64,000 nucleotides of DNA, from assembly GCA_031200235.1 (NCBI GenBank), contig CP133595.1, forward strand, positions 1,178,001 through 1,242,000, written 5' to 3'. Position 1 is the first letter of the stretch. Every line of letters begins with the position of its first letter. The stretch comes from Cuniculiplasma divulgatum. Its GTDB lineage: Archaea > Thermoplasmatota > Thermoplasmata > Thermoplasmatales > Thermoplasmataceae. Position numbers and translations under genes: made by a program. Below are positions 11,473 through 47,555 of this stretch, in pieces. The notes under the pieces were generated by a model that searched no databases, was not told the DNA's origin, and was given only the letters and a program-made list of their open reading frames with translations.

Positions 11473-12031
11473 ATTTCAGGTACATCGCATTTCTCCGGTT
11501 AAATATGAAAGAAAATCGCTTTCAATATATGACCGGTAATCAAGATATCAGGCTTGGAAGATGCTTAACTATCATGTATGGTAGCATTAAAATTGCACTT
11601 ATTTCATTTCTACTTTAGAGATCTCTGTAACCAAAGCAATATCTTCATGTTTCAGCACATGATCGAACGCTACAGAATCACCTACCCTGATGCATTCCGG
11701 CTGAAATCTGTGGATGGGATTTTGCGAAAGATTCTGGATAAGATCCTTGGCTTAAAGGCCATACCAGAAAAGAGGAACGCGTTGCAGGCAGTAAGAAGTG
11801 CACTTGTAGATCCCTTATGAAAGAGTGCCTGTTCTTAGTCTAAGCAGAAAGCAGGCACGTGAGTTCCAGCGCACTCCATTTTTAAGATCCGAGTTATTTT
11901 GCTGGATCAGCAGAGCGGATCTATTTGAATTTAGAACAGATGCCTGATAAAAAACAAGGTTGTTATGTTTTAACATTATTGTGAAGCTATAATAATCTTG
12001 GAAGCAGTAGGACGCCGGATTCCCAATAGAG
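11473..12031. other. Gene-poor stretch with one short ORF of doubtful status
   Basis: No recognisable gene is present between the DUF167 gene and tRNA-Glu. The forward frame 11578-11820 (80 codons, with an internal ATG in MFQHMIERYR) has a protein-like second half, TYPDAFRLKSVDGILRKI. It lacks a convincing ribosome-binding site or TATA box, and I do not recognise it. It could be a remnant of a larger gene. The rest is AT-rich with no clear repeat. Confidence 0.3.
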
Positions 12032-12106
12032 TGCTCCGACCGGGATTTGGACCCGGGTCGTCGGCTCGAAAGGCCGATATGCTTGGCCGGACTACACCAT
12101 CGGAGC
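12032..12106 (-). tRNA. tRNA-Glu (anticodon TTC)
   Basis: Read on the reverse strand, the 75-base sequence folds as a full cloverleaf. The acceptor arms are GCTCCGA/TCGGAGC, the D arm is closed by GTGT/GCAT with a large loop, and the anticodon stem TCGGC/GCCGA holds the loop CTTTCGA. The T arm is CCGGG/CCCGG with loop TCCAAAT. The anticodon is TTC and the discriminator base is A. CCA is not encoded. No intron is visible. Confidence 0.93.
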
Positions 12107-12129
12107 AGAACAGACCCTAAACCCACATA

Positions 12130-14278: not shown

Positions 14279-14854
14279 TCAGCGCTTTCTGTTAAAGTAG
14301 AAGTACAGTACGAAGGTTGCGGCGAATATTGCCACGATTATCGCTGCATCCCTGTAATCGTCATAAAGACTGACAACCCTGGGCTTGGACCACGAAAATC
14401 CAGGATAAGCACCGGAATCAAGGGCTTTGATGTTTGACAGGTGGCTTCCGCCGCTGGTCACAAGGGACTGCTGGTTCTCAGTCATCTTGAATGCTATGGT
14501 GAAGTTCTGGACACTGGGAAAACCAATTGAAGACAGCGCAGTTATAACATCAAGTCCGTAGGGGTTGAGGCCTGTGTATGACAGATCGAACACTATGAGG
14601 TCCTGCGTTGAATTTGCGCTCCAGTTGTATGTTACGTATGTGCTGTTATCTATTATATCTGCAAAGAATGAGTTCCACTCCGTAGTGCTGATCGTGTAAT
14701 GGTTTTCGGTTCCGTTTATATAATAGGTAACTGAGGGCAGACTCGATGGGGGCGGATTCAGTACAGGAGTGCTTCCCATGGCTGATATTGGAGCAACGGC
14801 CAGCACAAAAACGAATGCCAGAGCCGCTAGTGAAATGGCTGTCTTGTTTTTCAT
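14279..14854 (-). CDS. Secreted or membrane-anchored protein of unknown function
   Basis: I do not recognise this 191-residue protein. The N-terminus MKNKTAISLAALAFVFVLAV is a clear signal peptide. The C-terminus has one membrane segment (DAAIIVAIFAATFVLYFYF) followed by NRKR, so the body should lie outside with a short cytoplasmic tail. Several N-x-S/T sequons are present. The start taken is the ATG at 14854. The longer GTG frame to 14902 would place charged residues before the signal. It lies 69 bases downstream of the giant surface protein gene on the same strand and may be cotranscribed with it. Confidence 0.7.
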   Translation of the reverse strand: MKNKTAISLAALAFVFVLAVAPISAMGSTPVLNPPPSSLPSVTYYINGTENHYTISTTEWNSFFADIIDNSTYVTYNWSANSTQDLIVFDLSYTGLNPYGLDVITALSSIGFPSVQNFTIAFKMTENQQSLVTSGGSHLSNIKALDSGAYPGFSWSKPRVVSLYDDYRDAAIIVAIFAATFVLYFYFNRKR

Positions 14855-14923
14855 GAAATTGAATCCGAAACAGATATGAATTTCTCTAAATAAGTTTTTC
14901 ACTGCAATTTTCCAGATACGGAT

Positions 14924-17900
14924 TCAGTTTCCTCTTCTTGCCATTGATGGATCCATGGCGTATTTCTGGCCATCAGGATCAGCAAGTATGAGGATTTTCC
15001 CACGATCTACCAATCTTCTGAGAGCCGATTCCATGGTCTTCTTCCTGATTCTGCCAGCCTTGCCTTTTTTCATAATTTCACGTATGGTTCTGTTTCTCAT
15101 TTCCATTATGATCTCAGCTGCGGCATCCTCATCTGCGCCATAGGCAACCTGCCTGTATGCGACCAATGATACCGGGATCATGGCTACCAGTGCCTCAGGA
15201 ATGAAACCGAAAGTGAACACGGTCCTGGTTGTGCTTTTTCCGTGACCGTTAAAATGGACATCAAGGTTCACAGTGTGGTACCCTGGAAGGAGAAAAATGC
15301 TCAATGAATCTCCTCCATAGGATTCCCCTGATACAGTCCAAGTGTATCTAAGGTTCTGAAGGTCAGTACCATGAACAACTGGATGAAATTCTGCAAAACC
15401 TGATATGATGCTGTATGCAATTCCTATGCCTGTGATCTGAGGATAGTAAGTGACGTTTATTCCTCTAATTTCTGTGCTGTTTATGTTTCCACACATGTCT
15501 GTGGCTGTCAGGAATACGCTGTAATTTCCATCGGCATTGAAGTTAATGGTGACATTCCCCCGGCCCGTATATCCAGAATACAGGACTCTTGAATTGCTCA
15601 TTTTGATCTCAATGTATGCCGGTACGGCATCCATAACAGAAAATGCCAGTTCAGTGGTGTTTGTGCCTGAAAGATTCATGTCTGCAACTCTCACCGATAT
15701 TGCTGGAGGTCGATCATAGCTGGCTACCATGATGTTCTCCCTGGCAGAATTGTTCCAGAGGTTCCTGGCGTAAAACGTCACGTTGTAAGTTGAATTTCCT
15801 TCTGGTAAAGTTATTTCCCCATCTTCGGCAGACTGGATTGCCCACGATCTTCCTCTGCTTATGTTTGCCACGATGGAGATGTTGGCACTGTCCACATCAG
15901 GAAAATGCAGCACAGTTGAATTTGTGTATATGACAGGCTTCGGGAAGGATGGCACAACCGGAATTGTGTTGTTCACGCTCAATGATAAGTTACGGGATGA
16001 AATCAGGCCGCTACTGCCGATTGCCTCAATATTCATATGATAAGTACCATTCTCGTGGAAAAAGCCACTGCCCTGATCAAGGACAATATTCCAGTTTTTT
16101 CCGGTGACCTCCCACTCTCCAATCACATTGCCACAGTAAATGATGGATGCAGATATCCGTGATGTTACATTGCTTGTTGCGTTGATTGTCATGGTGTTAT
16201 TGCTGGAATCACCATAGAATGAAAGTAAACGGGAACCGGATGTGTTCACACTCAACAGAGGTCGGTATGTTTCGATCCCAAAGCTCCTGGAACCAAGGAA
16301 TGCAGTTTGACCATCAAGAAGCGTTGCATTGAGCGACAGGACATAATTTCCGTTTGTCAGATTGAGGGTTGTCCAGTTGGTGTCAAGCTGATACGAGAGA
16401 TTCATAGCGGCACCGTGGACATATAGGTCGTAATATGAAACGTTCTCCACTCCTACCCATTGTACAGTTATGTTGCTCCTGCTGTAGTACGTCCCATTTG
16501 TTATACCTATGGAGGTGCTGCCTGAAATGCCCTTTATGGTGGTGTAGTTGAACCATCTGGAATGCACTATTCCGAAGCAGTCTGTATAGTTCACCCAGAG
16601 AACCAGTTTCCCCGGGTTGGAGGACACAAACAGCCCGAATGCCAGAGAATTTGTTGTGTACGTTCCACTGTTCCATTGCACGCTTGTTGTGCCATTGCCA
16701 GAAGTGCCAGTTATATTTATTGTAAATCCCTGGGACTGGGCGATGTATGTCCCATTGCCTGGATTCACATATATGACAGGTATCTGGCTGTCAATGGAAA
16801 CCTCCTCATACACTGAGGATGAATAACCGGCCATGTTGCTGGCTGTTACAGTGAGCCGGTATGTCCCGGTGGGAAAAAGTGAGGCATCGATTGTGATACT
16901 GCCGTTACTGGCTTTAAGCTCAGTACCGCCAAGGGTCGCATTCAGGCTGTATGTGAGGTTTGAATGCACCGAGTATTCCACGGTAGAATTGTGTGTTATT
17001 ATTCCTGCAGGCTCCAGACTTATGCCTATACCATCTGTAGACAGTGGCTCAGCGCTGCTGTAGAATATGTATATGTCGCTACCGGCAGCAAGTGTACCGG
17101 CAGAGGCATTTTCGTCAAGATAGACTCCGGTTATGTTCTGCACAAAAATGTTGCTGGCGATGGCATAGTACGGGCTCAGGAACTCAGCCTGTCCAGAATC
17201 CATGTGCAGTGCAGTGTCTCCGGCCCCTGACCAGGTACTCAGGGATCCGTTGATGATAAGCATCCGGCTGTAATCCTCAGGGTCAAGCATGAATGAATAA
17301 TGTCCACTGGTTGTTGCGTTCATCAGAACTTCGTATACGCCATCTGTTTCCCAGGCCAGGCTCGTGTTCACAATATTCCCGTTGAATGTCTGTCCAGGAG
17401 CCATGGTCATATCCAGTGTTTTATTGAGAATGAAATGAATGGTGTCCCCGGACGAGAGATTGAGATCCATTCCCGTTAGGTTTCCGTGTGACTGGCTCAT
17501 GGCCACAAGTAAGCTGTCTCTACCAAGAGAGATATTGTATGCTGTGGATGTTCCACTTGTGAAATTGATTGCTACCAGCGAGAAGCGGGAAACCATTACA
17601 AAGCTTCCGTGGAGAAAGAAGACTCCAGTGAAATAGGGAAAATGTCCATAGGAGAGTGCACTGGAGACTGAAAGATCTGTCAGGTTAACGGCAATCATGT
17701 TCACTTCCGTGCTGTTCCCACAGGCAATATATTCCACGTTGCCAGATACCACAGATACAAAGTTTCCTCCGGAGATAGGCTGTACCTGGGTGAGAATACC
17801 TGCAGTCTGGTTTGCGTAATTCCAGTATGAAATAGAAGTTTTGCTGGAGTGCGCAACGAACAGGACATCATTAAGTTCAGGGTCCAGTACCGGGATCGAC

Positions 17901-18697
17901 GCACTTCGAATGTCACCTGTAACATTTCCGGACTGCTGCAATTCGTATGAATAATTTCTGGACTGTAGAGGTGCAAAGCCCGCATCGTGGCTGGTAACAT
18001 AGAGTTCGTCCAGAGTGATACTGCAGTTGCTACCGCCGACCAGAAGGCTGAAATTCCCGGGGTGTAGTGTACTGTTGACCGGCACAGTCATGGGGAAATT
18101 TCCCGTCGAGTTGTATCCACTCTCAATTGAAAAGAATATCTTGTTTGGATACAGGCTGTTCCATGACAATTCAACTGTCTGGAACGCGTCAATTGCTGGA
18201 TCCGGTCCTACATTTTGAATGGTTTTTCCGTAGATATACTGATGGGAGACGCCATTTTGCTGATCACCGGGCCCAAAAAAGTAGTGGATGATATTGCGGC
18301 CGCCCTGCATTATTGCAAGGTTGTCAATAGTTGTCAGCAGATTATCAGCGTCGTTCCACGAGTAAGTGATTTTCATGCTCTCATTTGATGTCCCGTTGAG
18401 GTTTATGTAAAAATATTCCGGGCTGGATATGGGTGCGCTTGTATTGATATTGAATCCGGAAACTGGCAATGCGCTACCCTCAACCATGTGTGAATAGGAA
18501 TTGAGCGGTGTGTTATTGAAGTTCACCCAGCTTGTGTTTGCAGGATACTGGCCAGAGGGAATCTCCGTGAAGTTATAGAGGCCTGGACTGCCGACGGGAG
18601 CTTGAATATTTGATCCGGATGAAACTTCAGACGTAAATACCGTAATTGGTATTAATAAACTTAATACTATTAATACCATTAATACCTTAAGTAGCAT
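14924..18697 (-). CDS. Giant surface protein with predicted cytoplasmic winged-helix tail
   Basis: This 1257-residue protein of no recognised family starts with a signal peptide or anchor (MLLKVLMVLIVLSLLIPITV). A long extracellular region follows, rich in Ser, Thr, Asn, Gly and N-x-S/T sequons. It has beta-propeller-like repeats in the first half and Ig-like repeats (for example YRLTVTASNMAGYSSSVYEE) in the second. One membrane segment lies at about 1163-1182. The last 75 residues are basic and helical: RNRTIREIMKKG, then RKKTMESALRRLVDRGKI and a hairpin-like ILADPDGQKYAMD. That order suggests a winged helix. An outside sensor wired to a DNA-binding tail is inference. The start is supported by a TATA box at 18728-18735. 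Confidence 0.82.
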   Translation of the reverse strand: MLLKVLMVLIVLSLLIPITVFTSEVSSGSNIQAPVGSPGLYNFTEIPSGQYPANTSWVNFNNTPLNSYSHMVEGSALPVSGFNINTSAPISSPEYFYINLNGTSNESMKITYSWNDADNLLTTIDNLAIMQGGRNIIHYFFGPGDQQNGVSHQYIYGKTIQNVGPDPAIDAFQTVELSWNSLYPNKIFFSIESGYNSTGNFPMTVPVNSTLHPGNFSLLVGGSNCSITLDELYVTSHDAGFAPLQSRNYSYELQQSGNVTGDIRSASIPVLDPELNDVLFVAHSSKTSISYWNYANQTAGILTQVQPISGGNFVSVVSGNVEYIACGNSTEVNMIAVNLTDLSVSSALSYGHFPYFTGVFFLHGSFVMVSRFSLVAINFTSGTSTAYNISLGRDSLLVAMSQSHGNLTGMDLNLSSGDTIHFILNKTLDMTMAPGQTFNGNIVNTSLAWETDGVYEVLMNATTSGHYSFMLDPEDYSRMLIINGSLSTWSGAGDTALHMDSGQAEFLSPYYAIASNIFVQNITGVYLDENASAGTLAAGSDIYIFYSSAEPLSTDGIGISLEPAGIITHNSTVEYSVHSNLTYSLNATLGGTELKASNGSITIDASLFPTGTYRLTVTASNMAGYSSSVYEEVSIDSQIPVIYVNPGNGTYIAQSQGFTINITGTSGNGTTSVQWNSGTYTTNSLAFGLFVSSNPGKLVLWVNYTDCFGIVHSRWFNYTTIKGISGSTSIGITNGTYYSRSNITVQWVGVENVSYYDLYVHGAAMNLSYQLDTNWTTLNLTNGNYVLSLNATLLDGQTAFLGSRSFGIETYRPLLSVNTSGSRLLSFYGDSSNNTMTINATSNVTSRISASIIYCGNVIGEWEVTGKNWNIVLDQGSGFFHENGTYHMNIEAIGSSGLISSRNLSLSVNNTIPVVPSFPKPVIYTNSTVLHFPDVDSANISIVANISRGRSWAIQSAEDGEITLPEGNSTYNVTFYARNLWNNSARENIMVASYDRPPAISVRVADMNLSGTNTTELAFSVMDAVPAYIEIKMSNSRVLYSGYTGRGNVTINFNADGNYSVFLTATDMCGNINSTEIRGINVTYYPQITGIGIAYSIISGFAEFHPVVHGTDLQNLRYTWTVSGESYGGDSLSIFLLPGYHTVNLDVHFNGHGKSTTRTVFTFGFIPEALVAMIPVSLVAYRQVAYGADEDAAAEIIMEMRNRTIREIMKKGKAGRIRKKTMESALRRLVDRGKILILADPDGQKYAMDPSMARRGN

Positions 18698-18727
18698 AGA
18701 TTAATAAATCACCCTTAAGGGATAAGT

Positions 18728-18735
18728 TATATAAA
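18728..18735 (-). promoter_or_regulatory. TATA box of the giant surface protein gene
   Basis: On the reverse strand TTTATATA lies about 30-38 bases before the ATG at 18697. With the GAPDH box it forms a compact divergent promoter region of under 100 bases. Confidence 0.5.
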
Positions 18736-18762
18736 AAATATCCATGAACCACCAGAATTGAA

Positions 18763-18770
18763 CTATTATA
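18763..18770 (+). promoter_or_regulatory. TATA box of the GAPDH-radA operon
   Basis: CTATTATA lies 26-33 bases before the GAPDH ATG at 18796, consistent with a leaderless or nearly leaderless mRNA. Confidence 0.5.
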
Positions 18771-18795
18771 TGCAGGCAGGCAATGGAGTAATAAC

Positions 18796-43654: not shown

Positions 43655-43897
43655 ATGGAAGAATCGGACGTAGAGGATTTGCTATATGTCCTCGAAGGAA
43701 GGTTCGGCAGTATTGATTTGCGTGCAAGGCAGATGATAAAAGAAATAAATGATTTTTCCACCTTGAATCGTTTGATACTTGTAGCCGCCAACGTCAGCAG
43801 CTATGGGGATTTTCTGCAGGAACTTGAGAATAAGGATTCGTTCAAAATAGCAGGTGATAGATTCAATCCACTGAGCAGGAGGAAAGTCAATGACTGA
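43655..43897 (+). CDS. Small DUF4351-like protein, first gene of the nar operon
   Basis: This 80-residue soluble protein has the pattern DLLYVLEGRFGSIDLRARQM, then INDFSTLNRLILVAANVSSY and FLQELE. It resembles the DUF4351 domain usually found at the C-terminus of Rpn-family nucleases. Here it stands alone. Its function is unknown; it could be a small assembly or regulatory factor. Its end overlaps narG by eight bases, and it follows a good TATA box, so it is cotranscribed with narGHJI. The family similarity is by eye. Confidence 0.6.
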   Translation: MEESDVEDLLYVLEGRFGSIDLRARQMIKEINDFSTLNRLILVAANVSSYGDFLQELENKDSFKIAGDRFNPLSRRKVND

Positions 43898-46800
43898 AGC
43901 CATAGGCGAGAAGAAAGGACAGGCAAGCAATAACAAATGGATAGAGTACGATCCCAGATCAAGAGAATGGGAGAATGTATACAGATCAAGATGGGATCAC
44001 ACCAAGATCGTCCGATCAACACATGGCGTGAACTGCACCGGTTCCTGCAGTTGGCAGGTGTACGTCAAAGATGGAATAATAACCTGGGAAACACAGCAAA
44101 CAGACTACCCATCCAATGGTCAGGATTTTCCTGAATACGAGCCCAGGGGTTGTCCTCGGGGAGCAACATTTTCTTGGTATACTTATAGTCCAATGAGAGT
44201 AAAATATCCATATATACGTGGGTCTCTTGTAAGAATGTGGAGAAAGGCACTCAGTGAAACCGGGAATCCTGTATCTGCGTGGGACAGTATTACCAGCGAT
44301 CCGCAGCAAAGGGATAAATATGTCAAGGATCGTGGAAAAGGAGGTTTTGTCAGAAGCAATTGGGATGAAATATCCCAGATAATATCCGCTTCTCTGATCT
44401 CAACTATAAAGAAGTATGGACCGGATCGGATACTGGGGTTTACACCTATTCCCGCCATGTCCATGGTCAGCTACGCAGCAGGTTCACGTTTCCTATCATT
44501 GATAGGAGGAAGCATGCTCAGTTTTTATGACTGGTATGCTGACTTGCCCCCCGCTTCACCGCAGATATGGGGTGAGCAGACAGACGTCCCTGAAAGTGCG
44601 GACTGGTACAATTCCAAATATTTTATCATATGGGGAACAAACCTCCCCCAAACAAGGACACCTGATGCACATTTTATGGTTGAGGCCAGATACAACGGGA
44701 CAAAAGTTGTTGGCGTAAGCCCTGATTATGCCGAATACATAAAGTTCAGTGACCTCTGGCTTCCCGCAAAGGCCGGCACAGATGCCGCACTTGCCCTGTC
44801 GATGGCACACGTGATTATCAAGGAGTTTTATGCAGATCGGCTTGAACCATATTTCGCCTCCTATGCAAAAAAGTACACTGATCTGCCATTCCTTGTCATC
44901 CTTAAAAAGGAAGGCGATGACTACAGGTCAGACAGATTCCTGAGGGCCAGTGATCTCGGGGTCGGCGAGAAATATTCTGAATGGAAAACGGTTGTGTGGA
45001 ACAGCGCCTCAGGGAAATTGAGTATACCCGGCGGGAGTATAGGCTACAGGTGGGATGAGTCATCCAGATGGAATCTGGACCTTGTCGGAGTAGATAATGA
45101 GAAAATAGATCCTGCATTAACATTTGTGGGATCGGAGGATTCTGTTGAGCTGGTTAAATTCCCATTTTTCGACGAATCTGGCTCATATACGTCAACGCGT
45201 GGGGTTCCAGTGAAAAAAGTAAAAAGCGCAGACGGGGGTATGATATCCGTCACCACAGTATTCGATCTCTTTGCAGCAAGTCTGGGCGTACCTCGTGGCC
45301 TGAAAGGTGACTATCCCGAAAACTATGAATCCGATGGGGCATACACTCCAGCGTGGCAGGAAAAGATAACAGGGGTGGACAGGAATCTGGCTATTAGAGT
45401 AGCCAGAGAATTTGCTGACAACGCCGCTAAAACCAATGGAAAATCAATGATCGCCATGGGCGCGGGCACAAATCACTGGTACAACAGCGACGTCATATAC
45501 AGAAGTATCATCAGTCTGGTGCTTCTCACAGGCAGCCAGGGAGTTAATGGTGGTGGCTGGGCGCATTACGTGGGCCAGGAAAAGGTTAGACCGTTCGAAG
45601 GCTGGAGCAATATTGCTTTTGCAATGGACTGGGAACCAGCTTCAAGACTTCAGAATGGTACCTCATTTTTCTATCTGGCATCAGATCAGTTCAGGTATGA
45701 GCAGAAATATGACTACACACAGTTAACTCCATTTCAGGGGAAATATGCCGGCAAGCACCCTGCGGATCTTCTGGCTCTAGCTGTGAGGGAAGGCTGGCAA
45801 TCAAGTTATCCCCAGACCAACAGAAACCCTCTGGACATTGCCAAGGAAGCCCGGGAAGCAGGCTGCAAGACAAATGAGGAGGTGGGTCAATACGTTGTCA
45901 AAAAGTTCCTTTCCGGTGATATTAAATTCTCCGTCGAGGAACCAGATAATGAAAAAAACTTCCCTCGAGTGCTTTTCCTGTGGCGTTCCAATCTAATAGG
46001 TGCAGCAGGGAAAGGCCATGAATATTTCATAAAACACATGATTGGATCAAGTGGCCATCCGCTTGGTGACTTAAGCGAAAGCTGGAAACCGGAAACTGTT
46101 TCCATACCAGAGAAAGTACCGGAGGGGAAACTTGACCTAATGGTAGATGTGGACTTCCGAATGACAAGTTCCGCCCTATATTCCGATATCGTGCTGCCTG
46201 CAGCCACATGGTACGAGAAATATGACATTAGCAGCACTGACATGCATCCCTTCGTCCATCCATTCAGTGCGGCTATATCACCGCCATGGGAAACTAGGTC
46301 GGACTGGGAAACTTTCAAGATACTTGCCAAGAATTTCTCAGAAATGGCTGCCAAGGAGCTTCCTGAGGTTGAGGATGTAATGCTGAATTCCATGCAGCAT
46401 GATTCAATCGATGAAATTGCGCAGCCATTTGGAACTGTCGATGACTGGTTAAGTTCAAAAACAACCCCAATACCTGGAAAGAACTTTCCCAAAGTTTCTC
46501 TCGTAAAAAGGGACTATACCAAAATTTATGACAAGATGGTAACCCTTGGCCCTCTGGAGAAGAAAAGGATAACTGCAAAAGGCATAACGATCCCCGGAGA
46601 GAATGCATTCCATGATCTGCTTGAGAGCAAATTGCCGGCATATGATGTGCAGGGTTCAAGTTTTGGCCTTCCATCAATTAAGGAAGAGCGGCAGGTTGCC
46701 GATGCAATGATGACACTTTCCGGTGCGACCAATGGCCACCGGTCTCAAGAAGAATGGGCCTTCCTTTCTAAGAAGATGGGGAAGAACCTCACTGAATCAT

Positions 46801-47555
46801 TCCGGGGGAATTATGAAACGGATATCTCGTTCGATGACCTCGTTAGGCAGCCCAGACGTGCAATTGCCGGCCCCGTTTGGAGCGGCAATGAAGGTGGTGG
46901 GAGGCGTTATTCTCCATTTACAACGAACGTTGAATTTTCAATCCCCTGGAGAACATTGACAGGCAGACAGGCATTTTATCTGGACCACGAATTAATATCG
47001 GAAATGGCCGAGAATTTGCCCATTTATAAGCCTCCGTTGGGGCTTGCATTCTATACAAACAAGGAGGACGGCGCGCGACTGGCAACAGGCAAACATCTTA
47101 CAGTAAGATATCTGACACCACATCAGAAATGGGGCATTCACTCCACCTACGCCGACACGCCCATCATGCTTACACTTTTCCGCGGAGGGCAGTATGTGTG
47201 GATTAATGAGGATGACGCAAAGGAGATTGATCTGAAAGATAACGACTGGGTGGAAATTTACAACATGAACGGTGTTGTTGTTGCAAGAGCTGTCCTGTCA
47301 TACAGGATACCCAGAGGAGATGCAATAATGTATCACGCACAGGATCGTACAGTGGGAACACCAGGAAGTGAGATAACCGGAGATAGGGGCGGAACACACA
47401 ACAGTGTTACGCGTGTGATACTGAAACCAACCCATTTAATAGGCGGATATGCGCAGCTGGCATTCTTTTTTAATTATTACGGGCCAACCGGTCACCAGAG
47501 AGATGCAACAGCTTTCATCCGCAAACTCAACGAGGTGAAATGGCTTGAAAGTTAA
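43890..47555 (+). CDS. narG: Respiratory nitrate reductase alpha subunit
   Basis: This 1221-residue molybdopterin enzyme reduces nitrate to nitrite. H45, C49 and C53 in THGVNCTGSCSW plus C88 in EPRGCPRG are the FS0 cluster ligands of NarG. The FYDWYADLPPASPQIWGEQT segment (from about residue 212) holds the Mo-coordinating Asp. Length and order match membrane-bound NarG. Unlike the haloarchaeal and Pyrobaculum enzymes, the N-terminus (MTEAIGEKKGQASNN) has no twin-arginine signal, so the subunit should be cytoplasmic. AGGAGG stands eight bases before the ATG. narH overlaps its end. Confidence 0.95.
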   Translation: MTEAIGEKKGQASNNKWIEYDPRSREWENVYRSRWDHTKIVRSTHGVNCTGSCSWQVYVKDGIITWETQQTDYPSNGQDFPEYEPRGCPRGATFSWYTYSPMRVKYPYIRGSLVRMWRKALSETGNPVSAWDSITSDPQQRDKYVKDRGKGGFVRSNWDEISQIISASLISTIKKYGPDRILGFTPIPAMSMVSYAAGSRFLSLIGGSMLSFYDWYADLPPASPQIWGEQTDVPESADWYNSKYFIIWGTNLPQTRTPDAHFMVEARYNGTKVVGVSPDYAEYIKFSDLWLPAKAGTDAALALSMAHVIIKEFYADRLEPYFASYAKKYTDLPFLVILKKEGDDYRSDRFLRASDLGVGEKYSEWKTVVWNSASGKLSIPGGSIGYRWDESSRWNLDLVGVDNEKIDPALTFVGSEDSVELVKFPFFDESGSYTSTRGVPVKKVKSADGGMISVTTVFDLFAASLGVPRGLKGDYPENYESDGAYTPAWQEKITGVDRNLAIRVAREFADNAAKTNGKSMIAMGAGTNHWYNSDVIYRSIISLVLLTGSQGVNGGGWAHYVGQEKVRPFEGWSNIAFAMDWEPASRLQNGTSFFYLASDQFRYEQKYDYTQLTPFQGKYAGKHPADLLALAVREGWQSSYPQTNRNPLDIAKEAREAGCKTNEEVGQYVVKKFLSGDIKFSVEEPDNEKNFPRVLFLWRSNLIGAAGKGHEYFIKHMIGSSGHPLGDLSESWKPETVSIPEKVPEGKLDLMVDVDFRMTSSALYSDIVLPAATWYEKYDISSTDMHPFVHPFSAAISPPWETRSDWETFKILAKNFSEMAAKELPEVEDVMLNSMQHDSIDEIAQPFGTVDDWLSSKTTPIPGKNFPKVSLVKRDYTKIYDKMVTLGPLEKKRITAKGITIPGENAFHDLLESKLPAYDVQGSSFGLPSIKEERQVADAMMTLSGATNGHRSQEEWAFLSKKMGKNLTESFRGNYETDISFDDLVRQPRRAIAGPVWSGNEGGGRRYSPFTTNVEFSIPWRTLTGRQAFYLDHELISEMAENLPIYKPPLGLAFYTNKEDGARLATGKHLTVRYLTPHQKWGIHSTYADTPIMLTLFRGGQYVWINEDDAKEIDLKDNDWVEIYNMNGVVVARAVLSYRIPRGDAIMYHAQDRTVGTPGSEITGDRGGTHNSVTRVILKPTHLIGGYAQLAFFFNYYGPTGHQRDATAFIRKLNEVKWLES

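Follow-up and report, generated by a model that had tools for sequence, protein, structure and literature searches.

The window analysed here, a 64,000-nucleotide stretch from the single-contig, 2.0 Mb genome of Cuniculiplasma divulgatum, contains a large minus-strand gene encoding 1257 residues, whose frame is open throughout without interruption (Table 1). Hydropathy analysis of the product revealed two hydrophobic stretches: the first, at residues 1–23, is strong (KD up to 2.7); the other, at residues 1160–1180 (KD 1.8 in the window protein, 1.3–2.6 in relatives), gives an only moderately hydrophobic membrane helix. The open frame and these two stretches confirm the layout previously read from the sequence, consisting of a signal peptide, a long ectodomain, one membrane helix and a ~75-residue tail. 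A fusion or frame artefact as the origin of this tail is ruled out, because every orthologue has it in frame. Separately, in one relative's genome (G016:C1:106265-108430) a TAA codon breaks the large gene, representing either an assembly error or a pseudogene. In most genera the large gene is divergent from a gene pair that reads, by eye, as type II GAPDH and RadA.

Table 1 Features of the large gene and its surroundings (window positions; residue numbers refer to the large protein).
Feature	Position	Strand	Basis or remark
Whole gene	14924..18697	(-)	1257 aa: signal peptide, ectodomain, membrane helix, predicted wHTH tail; full-length orthologues known
Signal peptide, ~residues 1–28	18614..18697	(-)	Hydropathy; hydrophobic N-terminus conserved in alignment
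N-terminal all-beta domain, residues 36–235	17993..18592	(-)	Predicted strands, pLDDT mostly 60–75; conserved motifs
Central beta-rich region, residues 236–560	17018..17992	(-)	pLDDT ~20–50; one weak propeller match
Tandem Ig/PKD-like domains, residues 561–1158	15224..17017	(-)	Pfam, AlphaFold2, Foldseek
Membrane helix, ~residues 1163–1182	15152..15211	(-)	Hydropathy and AlphaFold2
Predicted winged-helix domain, residues 1187–1249	14951..15139	(-)	AlphaFold2, Foldseek, HMM, hhalign
Recognition-helix position H3, residues 1219–1231, KKTMESALRRLVD	15005..15043	(-)	AlphaFold2 helix 64–76; basic face (K/R frequencies)
Wing hairpin, residues 1236–1248, D-P-D-G turn	14954..14992	(-)	AlphaFold2 and tail alignment
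Palindrome CCCTTAAGGG	18712..18721	(.)	Upstream of large gene
Small membrane protein	14279..14902	(-)	Start probably at 14854; adjoins large gene in most family genera

The ectodomain carries 60 N-x-S/T sequons, compared with 21.8 ± 4.0 in composition-preserving shuffles; it is thus sequon-rich, as the original prediction stated, and is probably glycosylated. AlphaFold2 modelling (11 sequences) built nearly the whole ectodomain from beta strands; confidence was fair over roughly its first 215 residues and the bulk of the Ig-like part, and very low mid-ectodomain. From its pattern, the N-terminal domain looks like a laminin-G/concanavalin-type sandwich. The predicted Ig-like repeats were borne out by Pfam matches of the window protein to Big_13, PKD and Y_Y_Y, all below the curated cut-off, with weak Big_13 matches in 11 of 21 members; furthermore, Foldseek retrieved tandem Ig/FN3 adhesins and receptors (the grappling-hook protein GhpA, contactin, gp130 and an ice-binding adhesin). 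The propeller repeats proposed at the same time were not confirmed, with residues ~240–555 modelled at pLDDT ~20–50 and a single weak propeller match among the 21 members; a beta-propeller in the central region is possible. The sole sequence matches to solved structures were to gp120 (E 0.05–0.2), which we took as an artefact of sequon composition and rejected as a relative. Sensing of surface contact or of a polysaccharide by the ectodomain, as had been suggested, is speculation. Among family genomes, tail-bearing open frames range from ~710 to 1330 residues (one shorter frame, of 515, may be at a contig end), and ectodomain length therefore differs strongly between genera while the tail is constant. 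Similarly, 349 of 623 alignment columns are gapped in the Ig region, versus only one of 60 in the predicted winged helix-turn-helix (wHTH) domain.

We then consider the structure predicted for the tail. In the AlphaFold2 model (positions counted from residue 1156), the membrane helix continues into H1, followed by H2 (50–59), H3 (64–76) and strands 81–84 and 90–93; block means of pLDDT were 84–89 over most of the domain and 75–77 at its edges. Prediction and profiles thus both give the helix-helix-helix-strand-strand order of the wHTH superfamily, with H2–H3 as the HTH and a wing hairpin. Among the first fifty PDB matches retrieved by Foldseek, most were wHTH proteins, together with a few unrelated folds. 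The wHTH matches comprised Zur/Fur, SlyA/MarR and PadR, as well as winged helices of ORC and RNA polymerase III subunits, with probability mostly 0.9–1.0; all E-values exceeded 0.001, as expected for a domain of 60 residues. These results uphold the earlier reading of the tail as a winged helix, the best matches being mostly wHTH regulators, and indicate that, as modelled, the cytoplasmic tail is a wHTH domain.

Profile searches point to the same superfamily. Pfam matches of single tails stayed below the curated cut-offs where shown: the best match of the window tail, Penicillinase_R, scored 15.4 bits where the cut-off is 22.6, and TrmB, MarR_2, HTH_24 and MCM_C gave no match in it at E ≤ 1, their best E-values (0.002–0.018) each occurring in one other member. 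By hhalign, the closest profile was the MCM C-terminal winged helix (MCM_C 96.6%, Lrp wHTH 94.6%, helical control 0.1%), percentages that are partly circular because the tail HMM itself selected both comparison sets. The identity of the secondary matches is free of this circularity. Twenty of the 21 weak secondary matches inspected across the order resemble wHTH proteins, with the alignment in register, including MCM C-termini, Lrp/AsnC, MarR-like proteins and a probable helicase. Pfam analysis of ten secondary matches assigned eight to MCM, Lrp/AsnC, TRASH or MarR-like HTH; the other two were a 107-residue fragment without a match and a quinolinate phosphoribosyltransferase, the non-wHTH exception. 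In the host genome the tail HMM detected no second tail-bearing paralogue, its next-best matches, both weak, being two regulators, one of the Lrp/AsnC type and one Lrp-like with a TRASH domain. The tail's best profile matches are thus MCM_C (PF21100), with which it shares helix spacing, and the Lrp/AsnC winged helix (HTH_24); MCM and Lrp/AsnC are soluble proteins, whereas the window tail is membrane-borne and has an acidic D-x-D-G wing turn.

We investigated the distribution of the protein and its tail. Relatives, full-length or partial, were found in 25 of 41 genomes searched (own included), nearly all in the window's family, the relatives' genomes being metagenome-derived (Thermoplasmata archaeon or Candidatus Thermoplasmatota). 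With the tail HMM, 39 of 41 genomes in the window's family each gave a single strong match (E 1e-32 to 3e-10). Outside the family the best match had an E-value of 7e-4, with none at E ≤ 1e-5 among 250 genomes of the class. The orthologues accordingly keep the tail, as the original prediction implied; they carry it in one copy each and almost gapless.

Joining a large external part to a DNA-binding end in one protein is familiar from the Bacteroides HTCS, the hybrid two-component systems, in which a very large extracytoplasmic sensor of propeller/Y_Y_Y-type beta domains is combined with histidine kinase, receiver and AraC-type HTH domains. The large external part is alike, but the propeller is unconfirmed here and kinase and receiver are absent: no histidine kinase or receiver Pfam match occurs in the 21 members, and the tail has only ~75 residues, which argues against a hybrid two-component system.

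Transmembrane transcription regulators are defined by combining, in a single chain, a predicted DNA-binding domain with at least one membrane segment; a survey found them in 367 of its 404 archaeal species, the single-pass form being the commonest over all prokaryotes (PMC10269533). By its predicted domains, the window protein very probably belongs to this class as a new, family-wide addition: it shares the predicted DNA-binding domain and the single membrane segment, whereas its ectodomain comprises ~1130 residues of adhesin-like beta domains. ArnR and ArnR1 of Sulfolobus, characterised membrane-bound archaeal HTH one-component regulators, have an N-terminal HTH, HAMP and sensor regions, and two C-terminal membrane helices (PMC6396743); in contrast, the window protein has one membrane helix, a large N-terminal ectodomain and its HTH at the extreme C-terminus, and thus falls outside the ArnR family. 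With CadC/ToxR and VtrA/VtrC (PMC9214523) it shares a cytoplasmic HTH, one membrane helix, an external sensor and an adjoining small membrane partner; those systems, however, are bacterial and have an N-terminal HTH and small periplasmic domains, an order that the window protein reverses. The earlier view that membrane regulators with so large an external part are undescribed in this group therefore holds in part: the class is already known in archaea (PMC10269533, PMC6396743), but the ectodomain size seems new. We found no published description of the family or its architecture in Thermoplasmatales in the open-access literature, and the large ectodomain and family-wide single-copy conservation seem to be the new points.

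The charge distribution of the tail bears on its possible ligand. The last 57 residues contain 17 K/R versus 6 D/E, and the net charge of wHTH-bearing tails is +3 to +13. Of the basic columns on H2 and H3, 1206, 1210 and 1213 (all in H2) are K/R in 82–91% of tails, and 1214, 1219, 1223 and 1224 in 55–68%; the window protein has K1210, K1213, K1219, E1223 and S1224. At the sequence level, these basic columns on H2 and H3 are suggestive of nucleic-acid binding. The wing has a different character: Asp1240 is invariant (22/22 tails) and Asp1242 is present in 86%, and the resulting D-P-D-G turn at residues 1240–1243 (14969–14980) is unusual for a DNA-contacting wing, basic wings being typical of DNA binders. 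The divergent promoter region 18698–18795, put forward as a place where the tail might bind, held no conserved operator; its palindrome CCCTTAAGGG is degraded in the sister species and is probably not an operator.

We favour, with moderate confidence, the reading that the large protein is a transmembrane one-component transcription regulator. The signal peptide would export the protein and the one membrane helix would hold it, placing ~1130 residues of sequon-rich, adhesin-like beta domains outside, with the membrane helix predicted to run straight into helix 1 of the cytoplasmic winged helix. An external change (ligand, contact or clustering) may then affect how the tails pair or are oriented, and tails in the paired state could bind DNA near the membrane via the basic surfaces on H2 and H3. 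Computation shows the fold, topology and conservation; DNA binding, dimerisation, a signal and target genes we infer for such a regulator. Counting against it, besides the acidic wing turn, the MCM_C resemblance and the lack of a conserved operator, are the sub-cut-off Pfam scores of single tails, the moderate hydrophobicity of the membrane helix and the Foldseek E-values above 0.001. Only tentatively do we extend this to a lineage-defining, single-copy receptor-regulator, in which a giant glycoprotein would read the surface state and, while still in the membrane, act directly on the chromosome, its acidic-winged wHTH domain differing from the usual DNA-binding wings.

The main rival is that a real winged helix docks proteins or tethers the chromosome, so that a structural surface glycoprotein would anchor a cytoplasmic partner or the nucleoid without a role in transcription. 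This is live since the closest profile is MCM_C, a domain that acts partly through protein contacts: the archaeal MCM winged helix is reported to interact with Orc1 and act allosterically, and the Rpa2 winged helix is also reported to act through protein contacts or allostery (PMC11686378). The invariant acidic wing turn and the lack of an operator in the divergent promoter are likewise consistent with docking, and single-copy, family-wide conservation with an adhesin-like ectodomain would suit a structural role. However, the basic stripes on H2 and H3 suit nucleic acid, and the relatives or fold matches of the tail include Lrp/AsnC, Fur, MarR and PadR regulators as well. It is the acidic D-P-D-G wing and MCM_C as closest profile that hold our confidence in the regulator at a moderate level and lead us to treat docking or tethering as rather unlikely, yet deserving of serious weight.

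Should the protein regulate transcription, a single gene would connect the outer surface of a wall-less acidophile with its genome, and its external part appears to be much bigger than that of ArnR, the archaeal example characterised so far. A tail that does not bind DNA would instead be a docking winged helix tethered to the membrane, likewise an unusual arrangement. Because the gene is single-copy in nearly every family genome, its deletion or a tail truncation in one culturable member would inform on the whole lineage.

We also examined the small membrane protein that lies beside the large gene. It reads as a signal-peptide/one-helix protein, has no Pfam match, and is present as a single copy in 77 of the order's 81 genomes, including all 48 good ones; distant members carry a calcium-loop-like DSDxDGYTNxxEL motif that is lost in the window's family. 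A two-gene receptor, with the small protein as co-sensor or stabiliser, would follow a known plan of a membrane regulator with a small periplasmic partner, as in ToxR/ToxS or VtrA/VtrC (PMC9214523), and the two genes do adjoin in most family genera. We nevertheless consider it improbable, as the small gene belongs to the core set of the whole order, independently of the regulator, and also occurs in families without a detected tail. Furthermore, the large gene is located elsewhere in genera g10, g18 and g19, next to metabolic-looking genes in the two loci that were read, and a different large surface protein there faces the small gene. In one g10 genome (L095 8626-11955) this other protein has ~1100 aa, reads by eye as a sedolisin-like peptidase and is divergent from the small gene; similar large ORFs are present in L096 and L097. 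In genus g3 the small and large genes are adjacent but divergent, on opposite strands, so their co-transcription is not general. These results indicate neighbours rather than an obligate pair, and argue against a VtrA/VtrC-like co-component.

Finally, a tail that is a mere positively charged stop-transfer or anchor segment, its wHTH resemblance functionless, is highly improbable: positive-inside tails are common and identity between distant tails is low (mean 23–24%), but 39 of 41 genomes retain the full fold with hardly a gap, Asp1240 is invariant, and purifying selection on the tail (dN/dS 0.15–0.20) equals that on the ectodomain.

Elsewhere in the window, the ORF at 11815–12126, 46–97% conserved over short stretches, was rejected as a false ORF lying over a tRNA-Glu gene (TTC; 12031–12106, minus strand). 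On the plus strand, 43890–47555 encodes a large protein that reads, by eye, as a respiratory nitrate-reductase-type (NarG-like) catalytic subunit.
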